Source: Bacteroidota bacterium
Lineage (GTDB): Bacteria > Bacteroidota > Bacteroidia > 2-12-FULL-35-15
DNA length: 64,000 nucleotides
Assembly: GCA_029237775.1 (NCBI GenBank)
Contig: JAQZBR010000002.1
Location: 372,001 to 436,000 of the forward strand
Direction of reading: 5' to 3'
Below, in pieces: positions 31,548 through 38,705 of the stretch. The position numbers and the translations under genes are program-made. The notes below the pieces were generated by a model. The model was not told the DNA's origin and searched no databases. It saw nothing but the letters and a program-made list of their open reading frames with translations. The stretch's first letter is position 1. Every line of letters begins with the position of its first letter.

Positions 31548-33347
31548 TTATTTTACCATTAATTTTTGAGAGTACCTTGAATCTTCGGTTTCTACAGTAA
31601 TATGATATGCACCGGGTGCAATGTCTAGCGCAAGAGAATTAATAAAATAATTTTTTTCTCCAATTGTCATCTGCCCTTCAAAAATGGTGGTAACAAGATT
31701 CCCAAGCATATCATACAATCTGATAGAGCCTCCCATGTTTTTTGATACAGATACGGGAATGCAAGTAATACCGTGTGAAGGATTAGGATATGCAGGCTTC
31801 ATATTTACCGCTCCAAGCTCGTTAACACTTGTTGCACCTAAAACCCTGAACTCGAAATTGCCGGTCGGAGCCGGCATCGGTCTCACCTGCTCCTTACCCG
31901 AATTCGCATGCCCTTTTATATAATAATAGATATGTGATCCGACAGCTTGAGCCGGGATGTATCCTGTCCATGTGTCGGTAGTAGCATTTGTTAAGCTCAT
32001 GCTTACTGCATTAAAAGGCTGAGTAGTATCAGTTGTCCAGTAGACCTGCGCATTCTGAATCCCGGACTTATGCTGGATAAGGGCATCTACCTGATACGGA
32101 GTTGTAGAATTGTAAGTGTCATTCAAATAATTATGGACGATGCGTAATGGATCTGAAACCCCAACGCAATGTGTGATGCAATGAATTACACCACTTTGTG
32201 CAATGATATTAGAGTTACTGTTATCTGCATCAATAGTAACTATTCTATATCCGGGCATGGCGTCACGGATAATTCTTACTGCAGTTGTATCGTATTGCTG
32301 GCGATAAACAGGCATGATGATGGTTTTATTAACTATCACAAAATTAGAATAGGTCCTGTAAGAAGCATTCGGAGCATATGCACCTGATGTGCTTGGTGGC
32401 ATTGGTACCCTGATTATCTTATAAGGATCGCCCCATGCATTATTAAAATTGCTTAACACATATTGAATGTTCGCTTCCATTTGTGGCCCGTCTGAAACAC
32501 CATTTGGAAATTCTCCGACAAGGATCGTTTTCTCATCCAGGAACTTCATGTGCATATCAATATGATGGATCCCATCGTATGGAAGTGTAGGCATTTTAAT
32601 ATACCTGTTGATTCCGTGATAAGTGCTCATTATCTGGTCGATCTGACTCTCTGTATGATTCGGATATGGAAAGGATAATGAATACTGCCCCGATCCGTCA
32701 TTCTCATCAAGGATCAGCTCAGAAGCTAAAGCAGTTCCCAAACCATCCACCATCCAGTTTCCACCTGTGTTTACTAGGTTGTTCGGGCTTAAATGTGTTT
32801 GATATAACGGAACATTCAGGTAGGAAGAGTATGCTAAAGGGATATCATCGTCATCAGGACGGGGGCGGTTATAGATCCAGTCGACAAGCACCAGTGAATC
32901 TACATCATTGAGATAGCATGTGTTTGCGGCATAATCGCGGATCCAGATAGAATTAAAAGGCACTTCGATGAACTTCACATTTGTAAGAGGTATCCCATTG
33001 TTTGTCAGATCAGTTTTTACTGCGTTCGAGTCGGCACAATGAATGATAACCTTACACTCCAGCTGGGCCGCTGCAACTATTTGGCGGTGAATGACAGGAA
33101 AGCCCGTCCAGGTAATTAATAAAGCCTGAGATTCTTCCCATTGCGCAGATGTACGGATGGGTTGCGTAGGAGGTGTTGTAATTCCAGCGCGCGGATGCGG
33201 GCGGTTTAAATAGTCCCCCATTAACTGTTCTTCTCCGGGAGCAAACCCAATTGGTAATAAAGGAGTTTGCTGAGCTGAAGCACTTCCCGCGATAAGCAAG
33301 AAAGTAAAACTCAATGCGATAGAAGTTTTAAGTAAAGTTTTCTTCAT
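31548..33347 (-). CDS. Secreted peptidylarginine-deiminase-like enzyme (PPAD-like) with T9SS sorting domain
   Basis: 599 residues starting at ATG 33347; a longer frame from 33428 would overlap the divergent gene and lacks a signal at its start. Signal peptide to about residue 25; deiminase domain (about 50-410) with the pattern Asp138 (WIRDYA), His262 and Asp264 (HHIDMH) and Cys390 (IHCITH), as in the agmatine/peptidylarginine deiminase superfamily; an Ig-like domain (about 415-505); then a T9SS sorting domain from about 518. This order matches the surface PAD of Porphyromonas gingivalis. The product is likely a citrullinating or arginine-hydrolysing surface enzyme; substrate not tested. Confidence 0.8.
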   Translation of the reverse strand: MKKTLLKTSIALSFTFLLIAGSASAQQTPLLPIGFAPGEEQLMGDYLNRPHPRAGITTPPTQPIRTSAQWEESQALLITWTGFPVIHRQIVAAAQLECKVIIHCADSNAVKTDLTNNGIPLTNVKFIEVPFNSIWIRDYAANTCYLNDVDSLVLVDWIYNRPRPDDDDIPLAYSSYLNVPLYQTHLSPNNLVNTGGNWMVDGLGTALASELILDENDGSGQYSLSFPYPNHTESQIDQIMSTYHGINRYIKMPTLPYDGIHHIDMHMKFLDEKTILVGEFPNGVSDGPQMEANIQYVLSNFNNAWGDPYKIIRVPMPPSTSGAYAPNASYRTYSNFVIVNKTIIMPVYRQQYDTTAVRIIRDAMPGYRIVTIDADNSNSNIIAQSGVIHCITHCVGVSDPLRIVHNYLNDTYNSTTPYQVDALIQHKSGIQNAQVYWTTDTTQPFNAVSMSLTNATTDTWTGYIPAQAVGSHIYYYIKGHANSGKEQVRPMPAPTGNFEFRVLGATSVNELGAVNMKPAYPNPSHGITCIPVSVSKNMGGSIRLYDMLGNLVTTIFEGQMTIGEKNYFINSLALDIAPGAYHITVETEDSRYSQKLMVK

Positions 33348-33374
33348 TCCGGTAATTTTTTGATGAAGGTATAT

Positions 33375-33382
33375 TAAATTTG
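33375..33382 (+). promoter_or_regulatory. -7 box TAAATTTG for the gene at 33420
   Basis: Exact TAnnTTTG match 37 bp before the ATG at 33420, in the short divergent interval with the deiminase gene. Confidence 0.45.
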
Positions 33383-33419
33383 CAAGAATTCCAACCCCGG
33401 ATTTTATAAAAATTGAACC

Positions 33420-33821
33420 ATGAAACACTTTATAAAAGTTCTCTCTGTCTTAGTTATAGTCGTTTTAATCATTTCTTTTGTTGCAGATGATTGCAAAGTA
33501 AATTACAACGGTATTTACACATATAAAATTGATGAAGAGCATTCTGCGGTTCTTCGTTTTTATGAGGATAAAACTGTACTGGCCTCGACTTCCACAAATG
33601 ATTACATGGATGTTATGAGCTGGTTTAATAAAGAGAACAAAGAGATGGTCTTGAAAGGCTCGTACAGCATAAAAGGGTCTACAATAAAATTTAAGGTGAG
33701 CGGTATGACCGGAGAGCAGAACTACGAAGGTGAAATCGCTGCGGATAAAATTAATTTCAACCTTAAAAATAAAGATTCAAAAAAGGGGATTAACAGAACC
33801 TATACTTTTATAGCTCTTTAG
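33420..33821 (+). CDS. Small exported or anchored protein, unknown function
   Basis: 133 residues with an N-terminal hydrophobic segment (about 6-22) followed by a Asp-Asp-Cys and a beta-rich body ending TYTFIAL. It resembles lipocalin-like single-domain proteins of Bacteroidota, but no motif allows a name. It is divergent from the deiminase gene and its end is 1 bp from the 3' end of the TonB receptor gene. Confidence 0.6.
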   Translation: MKHFIKVLSVLVIVVLIISFVADDCKVNYNGIYTYKIDEEHSAVLRFYEDKTVLASTSTNDYMDVMSWFNKENKEMVLKGSYSIKGSTIKFKVSGMTGEQNYEGEIAADKINFNLKNKDSKKGINRTYTFIAL

Positions 33822-33822
33822 A

Positions 33823-36066
33823 TCAATAGAAGTTATATCTGATACCAAGGAAATATCTTCTTCCCTGCATAGGTGCATAATTATAAGAAGGATCGAACGT
33901 ATATCCGTTCGGATTATTCTCGTCCACATATTTATCAAAAGGATCGAAAGGCCTGAGAATTGGATCTTTCGGAGTAAAATCGAAAATGTTCTTGACCCCA
34001 CCATAGATCTCTATTCCGGAATTGAACTTTCTGGTCACCTGCAAATTCTGAAGCGTAAACCATGGCGATTGTTCCGGCCTGTAATCATTAGGAACCACCG
34101 GTAAATGCATGGGGCTCTTTACATTTCCCGTATAGTCAACAGTGATCCTGGCTTTATTGAAAGTATAACTGATGCTGTAATTCCCGGAAAACTCCGGAGC
34201 ATGTAATTGAGGTGTTTTAACGGTTTCGTTGAATTTCTTTTCAACACTATAAACATTCATATACGTGCCTCCGAGATTGATCTTTAACCCGTTTGTGAAT
34301 ACAGCATTAATGCTTAAAGATGCACCTTGTGAAATAGCATATCCATTAATATTATCGAATATGATCTTGTTGGGATCAGTTATAAAGTCACCGATGATCT
34401 TATTTGAAAAGTAAGTATAGAATAAGCTGGCATCAACTTCTATAAAGCCGGCAGTCATCGTAATAAATCGCTGGTAATTTAAATTCGCATTCCATGAGCG
34501 CTCGGGTTTAAGATCGTTTTTTATCACCACTTCCCTTGCCCCTGTTAAAGCCGCATGATCTTCTGTGAATAAATTCACAACACGATATCCGTTCCCCGTG
34601 CTCAGCCTGAAGATGTTGTTTGAATTGAGAGAGTACTTTATACTTAAGCGTGGGGAAAGAATATTGCCATGCATCGTATTGTAATCATATCTTAAACCTG
34701 CAAGGAATACAAACTTCTTCAATCTGGTTTCTGTTTGTGCGAAGATGCCGGGCAGATACGTGTGCTGAGGTTTGTTTCTGATTGTTAATGTATCTGCATA
34801 TTGAGTTCCAACAGAATTGTCATCATAATAAGTATATCTGAATGGTAAGCCAACCAGAAGATCAGTAGAAGGAACTATCTTTTTGGTCCAGTACAACTGT
34901 GAAAAGAGAATGTTCTGACTCGCCATATAAGGAGTAGTTCCGTAATATGAATTCTGGTTATGATTATTAAAAGAATATTGAAAGAAGATCCTCTCCTTTA
35001 CAGGCAGCTGATAGATCCCGATCAATTCGTATCTCGAAGTATATATCGATTCTCCGTAAATACTGTCGCTGCCTCTCCATTTTGATCCCCAGTCAGTTTC
35101 ACCGCCCCAACGGTCCTCGTATACAAACCTTGCAGCAATGTTTGCCAACCTGCCCTCTTTCCTTTCTATACTCCACTTATTAAAAACAGATATCCTATTT
35201 TGAAGTGTGATATCAGTGAAGCCATCCTGATTTTTATCCATTACATTTTGAAAGTTGAAATAACTGATTCCTAAAAGTGAATGAATTTTTCCGGACTTGA
35301 TCTTGACTCCAATATCAGCATTGTATTCCTGATCTGTTGTAGCAAAAATATCTGCACTTACTTTTGGCGCATCCATAGGGTTTTTCGTAATAATATTGAT
35401 CAGCCCTCCGACAGCTTCCGATCCGTATAGGGTGCTCGCTGGCCCCTTTACAACTTCAATGCGATTGACAAGGCTATTCGGAATACCACTTAAACCATAC
35501 ACCGTGGAAAGGGCGCTGACTATAGGCATTCCATCAATGGTGATCATTGTGTACGGGCCTTCCATACCATTGATATGTATGTCACCGGTATTGCAAACAT
35601 TACAGTTTAATTGCGGTTGAACACCATTCACCATTTGCATGGACTCGAAAAGACTAGGTGTTGGATTTTTTAAAAATAATTTCGGGGTGAGGATCTCGAT
35701 AGGGATCGCGGATTCGGACCGACTAATCTCCTGCATGGTACCCGTTATCACAACCGTGTTCAAGCTGTTTTCGGATACAACTATCTCTTGCTTGAAAGAA
35801 ACCGTTTTACCGTTCTCTACCCGAATATTCTTTTTTACTTTTTCATAACCTATCAAAGATAATTGCAGCTCGTAGCTACCTTCAGGAATATCAGTAATCT
35901 TAAAAAAACCATTCTTATCTGTCAGCGCAGAATATTTTGTCCCTGTAAGTCCGGCAACAACCATTTCAACTGGCTTGCCTTCACTCAATACTTTTCCTTC
36001 CACACTGCCCTGGGCATATATGATCGATAACGAAAACAGGAATAGTATAAAGGTAAAAAGCCTCAT
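33823..36066 (-). CDS. TonB-dependent outer membrane receptor, likely manganese/metal-related
   Basis: 747 residues: signal peptide (to about 18), a carboxypeptidase-like regulatory domain (20-98), TonB plug (about 105-230) and beta-barrel to the C-terminus with a terminal Tyr. Within the plug is Cys155-x-x-Cys158 (NCNVCNTGDIHING), which could bind a metal. The gene is divergent from mntR/mntH and has a 6-4-6 palindrome over its promoter, so uptake of Mn or another divalent metal is the best guess. Iron-siderophore or other roles are not excluded. Confidence 0.8.
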   Translation of the reverse strand: MRLFTFILFLFSLSIIYAQGSVEGKVLSEGKPVEMVVAGLTGTKYSALTDKNGFFKITDIPEGSYELQLSLIGYEKVKKNIRVENGKTVSFKQEIVVSENSLNTVVITGTMQEISRSESAIPIEILTPKLFLKNPTPSLFESMQMVNGVQPQLNCNVCNTGDIHINGMEGPYTMITIDGMPIVSALSTVYGLSGIPNSLVNRIEVVKGPASTLYGSEAVGGLINIITKNPMDAPKVSADIFATTDQEYNADIGVKIKSGKIHSLLGISYFNFQNVMDKNQDGFTDITLQNRISVFNKWSIERKEGRLANIAARFVYEDRWGGETDWGSKWRGSDSIYGESIYTSRYELIGIYQLPVKERIFFQYSFNNHNQNSYYGTTPYMASQNILFSQLYWTKKIVPSTDLLVGLPFRYTYYDDNSVGTQYADTLTIRNKPQHTYLPGIFAQTETRLKKFVFLAGLRYDYNTMHGNILSPRLSIKYSLNSNNIFRLSTGNGYRVVNLFTEDHAALTGAREVVIKNDLKPERSWNANLNYQRFITMTAGFIEVDASLFYTYFSNKIIGDFITDPNKIIFDNINGYAISQGASLSINAVFTNGLKINLGGTYMNVYSVEKKFNETVKTPQLHAPEFSGNYSISYTFNKARITVDYTGNVKSPMHLPVVPNDYRPEQSPWFTLQNLQVTRKFNSGIEIYGGVKNIFDFTPKDPILRPFDPFDKYVDENNPNGYTFDPSYNYAPMQGRRYFLGIRYNFY

Positions 36067-36079
36067 AATTTAATTTAAG

Positions 36080-36087
36080 CGAATATA
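36080..36087 (-). promoter_or_regulatory. Candidate -7 box of the TonB receptor gene
   Basis: CGAATATA on the plus strand reads TATATTCG on the minus strand, one mismatch from TAnnTTTG. It lies 13 bp before the receptor ATG; the palindrome at 36097-36112 sits over its spacer and expected -33 region. Confidence 0.4.
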
Positions 36088-36096
36088 CGATTTATT

Positions 36097-36112
36097 TTTA
36101 GACTTATCTAAA
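36097..36112. promoter_or_regulatory. Candidate MntR operator TTTAGA-CTTA-TCTAAA
   Basis: A perfect 6-bp inverted repeat around a 4-bp spacer in the interval between the TonB receptor gene (minus) and mntR (plus). DtxR/MntR-type proteins recognise palindromes of this general form. Its position, covering the receptor promoter and upstream of mntR, suggests metal-dependent repression of the receptor and possibly of mntR-mntH. Confidence 0.65.
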
Positions 36113-36142
36113 TTTTAATTAAAAGTGGTAGAATTTATTCTT

Positions 36143-36150
36143 TATATTTG
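36143..36150 (+). promoter_or_regulatory. -7 box TATATTTG for mntR
   Basis: Exact TAnnTTTG match 18 bp upstream of the ATG at 36169. This location decides against a TTG start at 36148, which would lie inside the box. Confidence 0.55.
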
Positions 36151-36168: not shown

Positions 36169-36834
36169 ATGCATTCATTTACCGAAGAGAATTACATCAA
36201 AGCGATCTACAAGCTTCTGGAAAGTAATGATGAAACCGTAAGTACAAATGCAATAGCAGAAAGAATGAATACAAAAGCTGCGTCCGTAACGGATATGCTT
36301 AAAAAACTTTCTGCGAAAAAGCTGGTAAATTATCAGAAGTACCAAGGAGTTACCCTGACCGCGAAAGGGGAAAAAACTGCTTTGAACATCATAAGAAAAC
36401 ACCGGTTATGGGAAATGTTCCTGGTGGAAAAATTCAATTTCACATGGGATGAGGTGCATGACGTAGCCGAACAACTGGAACACATTCAGTCGGAAAAGTT
36501 GATTGACGAGCTTGACAAATTCCTCAATTTTCCAAAAGTAGATCCGCATGGTGATCCGATCCCGGACGCGAAAGGAAAACTCCATTTACAAAAGTCAAAA
36601 CCTCTTTCACAGTTTAATATAGATGATGTATGTGTGATAACCGGGGTTGTAGACCACTCCCCTTCCTTTTTACGCTATCTCGACAAGCAGGGATTTGTAC
36701 TTGGCAACGAAATTAAGATAAAGGATATGGCCGATTTTGACAGGTCGTTGCAGATAAGTGTAAATAAACGAGCATCATTTTTTATAAGTAATGATGTTGC
36801 AAAAAACATATTGGTGATAGCTAAACAGATATGA
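36169..36834 (+). CDS. mntR: DtxR/MntR-family metal-dependent transcriptional regulator
   Basis: 221 residues from ATG 36169. N-terminal winged helix (about 3-65: EENYIKAIYKLL, MNTKAASVTDMLKKLSAKKLV), the dimer/metal domain with RKHRLWEMFLVEKF and EVHDVAEQLEHIQSE (the usual His/Glu ligand helices), and an SH3-like C-terminal part. It probably senses Mn(II) or Fe(II) and represses transport genes when metal is plentiful. Its stop overlaps the ATG of mntH (ATGA), so they are co-translated. A palindrome upstream fits as its target. Confidence 0.88.
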   Translation: MHSFTEENYIKAIYKLLESNDETVSTNAIAERMNTKAASVTDMLKKLSAKKLVNYQKYQGVTLTAKGEKTALNIIRKHRLWEMFLVEKFNFTWDEVHDVAEQLEHIQSEKLIDELDKFLNFPKVDPHGDPIPDAKGKLHLQKSKPLSQFNIDDVCVITGVVDHSPSFLRYLDKQGFVLGNEIKIKDMADFDRSLQISVNKRASFFISNDVAKNILVIAKQI

Positions 36835-38705
36835 CTAAAATCTCAGGAAAATCGCTGGGTGAAGTTCACTCAAGTGTAGAAACAGGAAAGAATTCTTTTT
36901 GGAAAAAGCTTTTTGCATTTATGGGTCCTGCCTATCTTGTAAGTGTAGGTTATATGGATCCGGGTAATTGGGCAACCGATATTGCCGGTGGTAGCCAATT
37001 TGGGTATAAGCTCCTCTGGGTGCTGGTCATGAGTAACCTCATGGCCTTATTACTTCAAACCCTGAGTGCCCGCCTTGGCCTTGTCAGAGGTCTTGATCTT
37101 GCCCAGGCTTCGAGAGCTACTTATCCACCCGTAGTAAATTTCATTAACTGGGTGCTTGCCGAAATTGCGATTGCAGCTTGTGACCTGGCCGAAGTTATAG
37201 GAATGGCGATCGGCCTTCAATTACTTTTTAACATTCCCCTTTTGGCAGGTGTATCTATAACCGTGGCTGACACGCTTCTTATCCTCTTTCTTCAAAAACA
37301 CGGGATCAGAAAAATGGAAGCGTTTATTCTGGCTCTGGTAGCTACGATCGGAGTGGCGTTTATTGCCGAGCTTTATTTCGCGAAACCTGATGGAGGGGAA
37401 TTGATCAAAGGACTTATACCAAGCATACCGAATAACAATGCCTTATATATCGCAATAGGAATTATCGGTGCCACAGTAATGCCACATAATCTTTATCTGC
37501 ATTCATCTCTTGTCCAAACGAGAAAAATTGAGCGCACACCGGCAGGGATTAAAGAAGCGTTGAAGTTCAACCTTATTGATACGACCATTGCATTGAATGC
37601 TGCGCTCTTTGTAAATGCTGCAATCCTCATACTTGCAGCAAGTGCTTTTTTCTCCACAGGCAGATATGGCGTTGCCGAAATTCAGGATGCATTCCATTTG
37701 CTTGAAAATATTCTGGGAACTCACCTGGCTCCTATTCTGTTCGCTGTTGCCCTTATCGCTGCCGGACAAAGCTCTACACTCACAGGGACACTTTCCGGAC
37801 AGATTGTTATGGAAGGGTATCTGAATCTTAGAATGCAACCATGGTTAAGAAGATTGATCACACGGATGATCGCAATAGTTCCTGCCTTACTTGTCATTCA
37901 CTTTTTTGGCGAAGAAGCGACAGGTGAACTGCTTATTTTGAGTCAGGTGATCCTTAGCTTGCAGCTTGGCTTTGCGATAATCCCATTGATTCATCTGACA
38001 AGTGATAAAAGACAAATGGGAATTTTTGCAAACAAACTATGGATCAAAATTGCTGCCTGGCTTATTGCAACTATAATTGTGATCCTTAACGGTCGCCTGG
38101 TGATACAAACCACCGAAGAGTGGATAGCATCTTCAGAAAATCCCGTAATTCTTTATTTGACTGTGATCCCATTGATTGCGGGTGCAGGGATTTTATTATT
38201 GTATATAACGTTTAGCCCTCTCATAAAAAAAGCGAAGGTCAGGGATGCTAATTCTCCGGATGGAAATCCCGATGAACTTGACATAGTGCCACTTCTTAAA
38301 TATAACAAGATCGCGATAACAGTCGATTTCAGCAGAAGTGATAGCAAAGCCATAAGCAATGCTTTTTCACAGGGAGGTAAAAAAGCGGAGTATGTATTGA
38401 TTCATATCGTAGAAACCGCAGGCGCGCGTATGATGGATCAAGAAATAGATGATTTTGAAACTGTTTCCGATAAGATAAACCTTGAAAAATATAAGGTTGA
38501 GCTTTCAGCCAAAGGTTATATTATACATACAAAACTTGGCTTTGGAAACCCTAAAAAAAGCATCCCGGAAATAGTGAACCAAACAGACTGTGACCTTCTT
38601 GTCATGGGCGCTCATGGTCACCGCGCCTTTAAAGACATACTTCTGGGTACCACGCTTGACGCGGTAAGGCATAATGTTCGTGTGCCTGTTTTGATTGTTA
38701 AATAA
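36831..38705 (+). CDS. mntH: Nramp-type divalent metal transporter fused to a universal stress domain
   Basis: 624 residues. The Nramp part (about 25-470) has eleven or so helices, DPGNW (43-47) and MPHNLYLHSS (217-226), the metal-site motifs of proton-coupled Mn/Fe transporters. The C-terminal part (about 491-624) is a UspA-like domain with the nucleotide-binding pattern GAHGHRAFKDILLGTT. The domain faces the cytoplasm by prediction. Such fusions occur in Bacteroidota and suggest nucleotide-dependent control of transport, by inference. ATGA overlap with mntR. Confidence 0.92.
   Translation: MTKISGKSLGEVHSSVETGKNSFWKKLFAFMGPAYLVSVGYMDPGNWATDIAGGSQFGYKLLWVLVMSNLMALLLQTLSARLGLVRGLDLAQASRATYPPVVNFINWVLAEIAIAACDLAEVIGMAIGLQLLFNIPLLAGVSITVADTLLILFLQKHGIRKMEAFILALVATIGVAFIAELYFAKPDGGELIKGLIPSIPNNNALYIAIGIIGATVMPHNLYLHSSLVQTRKIERTPAGIKEALKFNLIDTTIALNAALFVNAAILILAASAFFSTGRYGVAEIQDAFHLLENILGTHLAPILFAVALIAAGQSSTLTGTLSGQIVMEGYLNLRMQPWLRRLITRMIAIVPALLVIHFFGEEATGELLILSQVILSLQLGFAIIPLIHLTSDKRQMGIFANKLWIKIAAWLIATIIVILNGRLVIQTTEEWIASSENPVILYLTVIPLIAGAGILLLYITFSPLIKKAKVRDANSPDGNPDELDIVPLLKYNKIAITVDFSRSDSKAISNAFSQGGKKAEYVLIHIVETAGARMMDQEIDDFETVSDKINLEKYKVELSAKGYIIHTKLGFGNPKKSIPEIVNQTDCDLLVMGAHGHRAFKDILLGTTLDAVRHNVRVPVLIVK

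Follow-up and report, generated by a model that had tools for sequence, protein, structure and literature searches.

The stretch of DNA analyzed here (the window, 64,000 nucleotides of a Bacteroidota genome) contains an inverted repeat, TTTAGA-CTTA-TCTAAA (TTTAGACTTATCTAAA, positions 36097-36112, with no strand assigned), between the gene for a TonB-dependent receptor on the reverse strand (33823-36066) and mntR on the forward strand (36169-36834), whose start is 57 bp from the repeat. As judged from its Pfam domains and metal-ligand columns, mntR encodes a DtxR-family metalloregulator with a C-terminal FeoA domain: PF01325, PF02742 and PF04023 all scored above their cut-offs, giving the product both the DtxR-type helix-turn-helix and the metal-binding and dimerisation domain, and no other gene in the genome belongs to the DtxR family (PF02742). 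The next gene, mntH (36831-38705, forward strand), encodes an NRAMP metal importer that ends in a Usp domain at its C-terminus; the mntH start codon and the stop codon of mntR overlap (ATGA), and the mntH product scored 594.5 bits against the curated NCBIfam model for MntH (NF001923, cut-off 430). At the same operon position, three relatives (L068, L091 and L100) have another membrane protein in place of NRAMP, which in L068 is a ZIP transporter by Pfam, while the operator and the receptor are kept. Elsewhere in the window, 31548-33428 encodes a peptidyl-arginine deiminase domain of the Porphyromonas type, and its product has a C-terminal tail for type IX secretion.

A preliminary description of this DNA had pointed to the palindrome between the receptor and mntR, and that observation holds and clearly exceeds what chance would give. 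Rather than being frequent at unrelated places, TTTAGA-N4-TCTAAA was found only at 36097-36112 when the whole genome of 4,079,927 bases was searched for the exact pattern. Because the exact site is unique, none stands before other metal genes of this genome, where further copies had been proposed. With up to two mismatches, the window held 6 matches, of which only that at 36097-36112 is exact, against 8.3 expected, and the genome held 41 forward matches against 85 for a reversed-pattern control; since both searches gave numbers at or below background, we claim no further regulon members in this genome. The relaxed pattern TTTAG-N6-CTAAA identified four further genome sites, none of which keeps the symmetry of the inner bases in full; at least three of them fall inside open reading frames.

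To follow the element across the phylum, mntR homologues were gathered from 59 relatives and 80 genome contigs, among which 98 distinct Bacteroidota loci had enough upstream DNA. A palindromic operator before regulator or transporter genes, a trait of DtxR/MntR systems, was found in 93 of these 98 loci (at least 9 of the 10 bases of TTTAG-N6-CTAAA within 330 bp upstream of mntR), and all ten bases were present in 90, compared with a full match in 2 of 1960 shuffled upstream sequences; the loci span down to approximately 50% protein identity and are mutually related, and therefore they are not independent draws. The consensus of the Bacteroidota MntR operator is TTTAGRYTARYCTAAA. In an alignment of eight receptor-type relatives, including the window, all of the palindrome's ten outer bases are unchanged (10/10), as against 16% of the other columns, and both -7 elements are conserved. 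It is scarcely credible that the inverted repeat arose by chance or is the site of an unrelated factor: the intergenic DNA is AT-rich and two-mismatch matches are no commoner than chance, as such an explanation would have it, but the perfect match is unique in the genome and is conserved beside mntR across the phylum, which contradicts it. On its uniqueness, its conservation upstream of mntR and its invariant core, the palindrome is a real operator of the MntR/DtxR type, as predicted from sequence, and it would almost certainly be the binding site of the neighbouring MntR.

The position of the operator relative to the two promoters was analyzed next. The -7 box of Bacteroidota promoters has the consensus TAnnTTTG. 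For the receptor promoter, the predicted -7 element is TATATTCG (36080-36087, reverse strand), an imperfect fit to this consensus, and in relatives TATATTTG or TACATTTG serves as the receptor -7 at the same distance of 15-17 bp from the operator centre. As this element (36087-36080) is only 9 bp away from the palindrome, the palindrome fills the -33/spacer interval of the receptor promoter, in agreement with the placement over the -7 to -33 span originally proposed. For the mntR-mntH promoter, it is TATATTTG (36143-36150, forward strand), which starts 38 bp past the operator centre in the downstream direction, so that the operator lies just upstream of the -33 region of this promoter. The same arrangement was found in related loci: the distance from the operator centre to the receptor -7 was 14-17 bp in all ten receptor-divergent loci, and that to the mntR -7 was 36-39 bp in eight of the ten, whereas it was 16 bp in 12 of 12 loci with a divergent Lrp-type gene. 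Thus, the operator is usually shifted into the mntR promoter at receptor-less loci, while in the window's clade it occupies the -33 to -7 interval of the receptor; the rule is not absolute, as L044 and L050 keep the long spacing despite having no recognisable divergent receptor. Since the operator is in the core of the receptor promoter but only upstream of the -33 of mntR, direct repression of the receptor is the better-supported half of the proposed regulation, and its effect on mntR-mntH in this arrangement could be weaker.

The operator could, in principle, serve the autoregulation of mntR-mntH alone, with the receptor start falling on its other side by coincidence and the receptor outside the regulon. 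The operator is present in most relatives that lack the receptor and the intergenic space is short, both of which agree with this explanation. Nevertheless, we regard it as improbable, because loci with a divergent receptor have the operator in the core of the receptor promoter and not in that of mntR, and because receptors of the same family that are unlinked to mntR often have a site of their own. For the latter analysis, we used the mntR sites of receptor-less loci, and no others, to train a weight matrix and scanned the 200 bp before receptor genes with a cut-off score of at least 15. The family comprised 83 loci, 33-80% identical to the window receptor, a few of which are the same genome under two names. 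Sites at or above the cut-off preceded 53 of the 83 receptors, namely 24 of the 35 whose fetched stretch contains mntR and 29 of the 48 whose stretch does not, "unlinked" here meaning that no mntR lies within about 1-1.5 kb, which is not proof of a distant location. In contrast, none of 24 other TonB receptors scanned with the same matrix reached the cut-off, and a paralogous TonB family (27-31% identity), used as a control, had neither the operator nor the CxxC motif described below. The remaining 30 family receptors scored below 15, with variant sites in some and no visible site in others. Individual loci with a clear receptor operator include L145/L137 and L147, as well as L063, in which one operator precedes mntR and a second precedes the receptor, located beyond mntH. 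Because receptors of the family that stand apart from mntR have operators of their own, the assignment of the window receptor to the predicted MntR regulon is supported, and these sites suggest that the whole receptor family would be switched on across Bacteroidota when manganese, and perhaps also iron, runs low.

Other types of genes were also found near this operator. In L004, L005, L014 and L018, the divergent partner of mntR is a different predicted outer-membrane protein with the motif DRPDQTE; a member of this type in L131 (1501-2307) belongs to Phenol_MetA_deg (PF13557) and has its own operator with no mntR nearby. The operator is also located before lipoprotein genes of one type in L012, L028, L029, L041 (upstream of mntR), L119 and L134, and the lipoprotein in L134 (1501-2746) is a di-haem oxidoreductase (DHOR, putative peroxidase), which hints that metal limitation may be linked to the handling of peroxide.

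The preliminary description considered the receptor a porin-like step, and this does not apply, as the protein is a plugged TonB-dependent receptor. It contains the Plug (PF07715) and an N-terminal CarbopepD_reg_2 domain, and its AlphaFold2 model (mean pLDDT 81, pTM 0.77) is a plugged TonB barrel whose fold matches, BtuB, FepA and Cir, give no cargo identity. Alignment and model place a CNVC motif (C155 and C158) in the centre of the plug. Both cysteines are invariant in a 36-sequence alignment of the family, and CxxC is present in 81 of the 83 family loci (in one of the exceptions, L234, the gene has an in-frame stop) as opposed to none of the 24 control TonB receptors. In many lineages, a gene for a secreted protein of approximately 155 amino acids with a WCxxC thioredoxin fold comes next after the receptor gene, and the codons of the two often overlap. 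No thioredoxin gene is located directly 3' of the window receptor, where the downstream gene is convergent and has no Pfam match. A 188-amino acid thioredoxin-like protein on contig C4 (45% identical) was considered as the partner and was rejected, as its gene has neither an operator nor a receptor beside it. The plug CxxC, accompanied in many lineages by the thioredoxin-fold protein, would act as a metal or redox site, and the receptor would transport Mn2+ or a Mn2+ complex. A conserved loop of the receptor, DxNxDGxTD (residues 277-285; window 35212-35238, reverse strand), resembles an EF-hand-like metal site, and its D277, D281 and D285 are invariant in the family alignment. A second receptor subfamily with CQNC or CQTC adjoins mntR-like genes in other Bacteroidota (L100, L274 and L277), sometimes with a thioredoxin gene and an operator, and the operator is found less consistently before the CQNC-type receptors, with scores above 13 in 5 of 16. 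The 14 CQNC-type genomes are absent among the 70 CNVC-type genomes, as if one type replaces the other, in a comparison uncorrected for phylogeny.

Which metal operates the switch was considered from the regulator and its partner genes. The solved sequences nearest to the window MntR are 5zr4, SloR and ScaR. Its ligand columns are N8, K11, H78, E101, E104 and H105, where Bacillus subtilis MntR has D8, E11, H77, E99, E102 and H103; since only four of the six ligands of the binuclear Mn site are kept, the protein is a DtxR-family regulator and not a B. subtilis-type MntR. Glu101 is at the position that discriminates between Mn and Fe, where the iron-type DtxR has Cys, and therefore Mn is favoured, whereas Asn8 and Lys11 make the Mn dependence that was originally proposed less certain, Lys11 and the conserved His97 being as in DR2539 of Deinococcus radiodurans, which responds to both Mn(II) and Fe(II) (PMC3327659). 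DR2539 is also similar in its conserved His98, its SH3-like domain and its control of mntH through an inverted repeat, and differs in that the passages covered describe no outer-membrane receptor (PMC3327659). A mainly iron-responsive operator and regulator, with a receptor that imports an iron compound, would account for K11, His97 and the FeoA/SH3-like domain, which match DR2539 (PMC3327659), for the fact that characterised TonB receptors mostly carry iron compounds, and for the need for Mn and Fe limitation together at a similar locus of Stenotrophomonas maltophilia (PMC13217887). We consider this unlikely, although less so than the other alternatives, because the regulator shares Glu at position 101 with Mn sensors, its partner transporter is recognised by the MntH model, and Fe(II) destabilises the DNA complexes of PgMntR from Porphyromonas gingivalis (PMC4805248). 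Mn dependence of the predicted switch is thus probable; Mn is a likelier signal than Fe, although Fe may also serve, alone or together with Mn.

The MntR-controlled TBDR-pTFP module of S. maltophilia (PMC13217887, 2026) also has, close to mntR and mntH, a TonB receptor whose plug contains CxxC and whose promoter contains an MntR-box, and its reporter fusion is active only under a shortage of both Mn and Fe and is shut off by 80 nM Mn. Its thioredoxin-fold partner is located downstream, as in many Bacteroidota relatives but not adjacent to the window receptor, its motif is CQNC instead of the CNVC of the window subfamily, and the window operator, unlike that of the module, is common to the receptor and mntR-mntH. 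Bacteroidota are unmentioned in the main text of that report ("bacteroid", 0 occurrences). PgMntR is likewise a Bacteroidota DtxR-family Mn regulator with C-terminal FeoA domains that binds the promoter of its own transporter operon, more tightly with Mn, but it has two FeoA domains, an Asp19/Cys108 ligand set and an FB2 (FeoB-type) transporter in place of NRAMP, and the portion of its text searched mentions neither a palindrome nor a TonB receptor (PMC4805248). Our literature searches found no described outer-membrane Mn step for Bacteroidota and no prior report on MntR with TonB in Bacteroidetes or Flavobacterium. Compared by description, MnoT of Burkholderia and MnoP of Bradyrhizobium are outer-membrane Mn steps; MnoT is TonB-dependent and differs in that it partners TseM, a Mn-binding protein secreted by the type VI system. 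MnoP is a porin-like channel regulated by Mur.

Based on these results, we think it quite likely that the palindrome is an MntR operator through which metal-bound MntR represses the divergent receptor, and probably mntR-mntH as well, in a two-membrane metal uptake system. When metal (Mn2+, possibly Fe2+) is plentiful, metal-bound MntR would occupy the palindrome and block the -33/-7 region of the receptor and, from its position just upstream of the mntR promoter, would probably also damp mntR-mntH. When metal is scarce, the repressor would leave, and the outer-membrane receptor and the inner-membrane NRAMP importer would be made together as a two-membrane uptake route. The computational results that back this model are the uniqueness and conservation of the operator, the promoter geometry, and the recurrence of the operator before unlinked family receptors; MntR binding and the triggering metal are predictions. 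The preliminary proposal of a simple Mn-dependent receptor switch was therefore largely right. Its core, a predicted repressor operator over the receptor promoter beside the only DtxR-family gene, stands, with metal and cargo inferred; it was incomplete in that the same site, as receptor-less relatives indicate, also serves, or served, mntR-mntH, and so the switch is not simple.

The passage of Mn2+ across the outer membrane is poorly understood. A phylum-wide manganese importer of the Bacteroidota outer membrane, consisting of a CxxC-plug TonB receptor that would be serviced by a secreted thioredoxin-fold protein in many lineages, repressed by MntR through its own operator, and metal- or redox-responsive at its plug CxxC, is a tentative proposal that we hold somewhat short of even. 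The MntR-controlled receptor module has so far been reported from Lysobacterales, Sphingomonadales and Opitutales and is now extended to another large phylum, and TTTAGRYTARYCTAAA provides a usable MntR motif for the annotation of Bacteroidota. Furthermore, as operator position ties the receptor family to MntR in dozens of genomes, also for copies that are not beside mntR, the question of how manganese crosses the outer membrane becomes directly testable.
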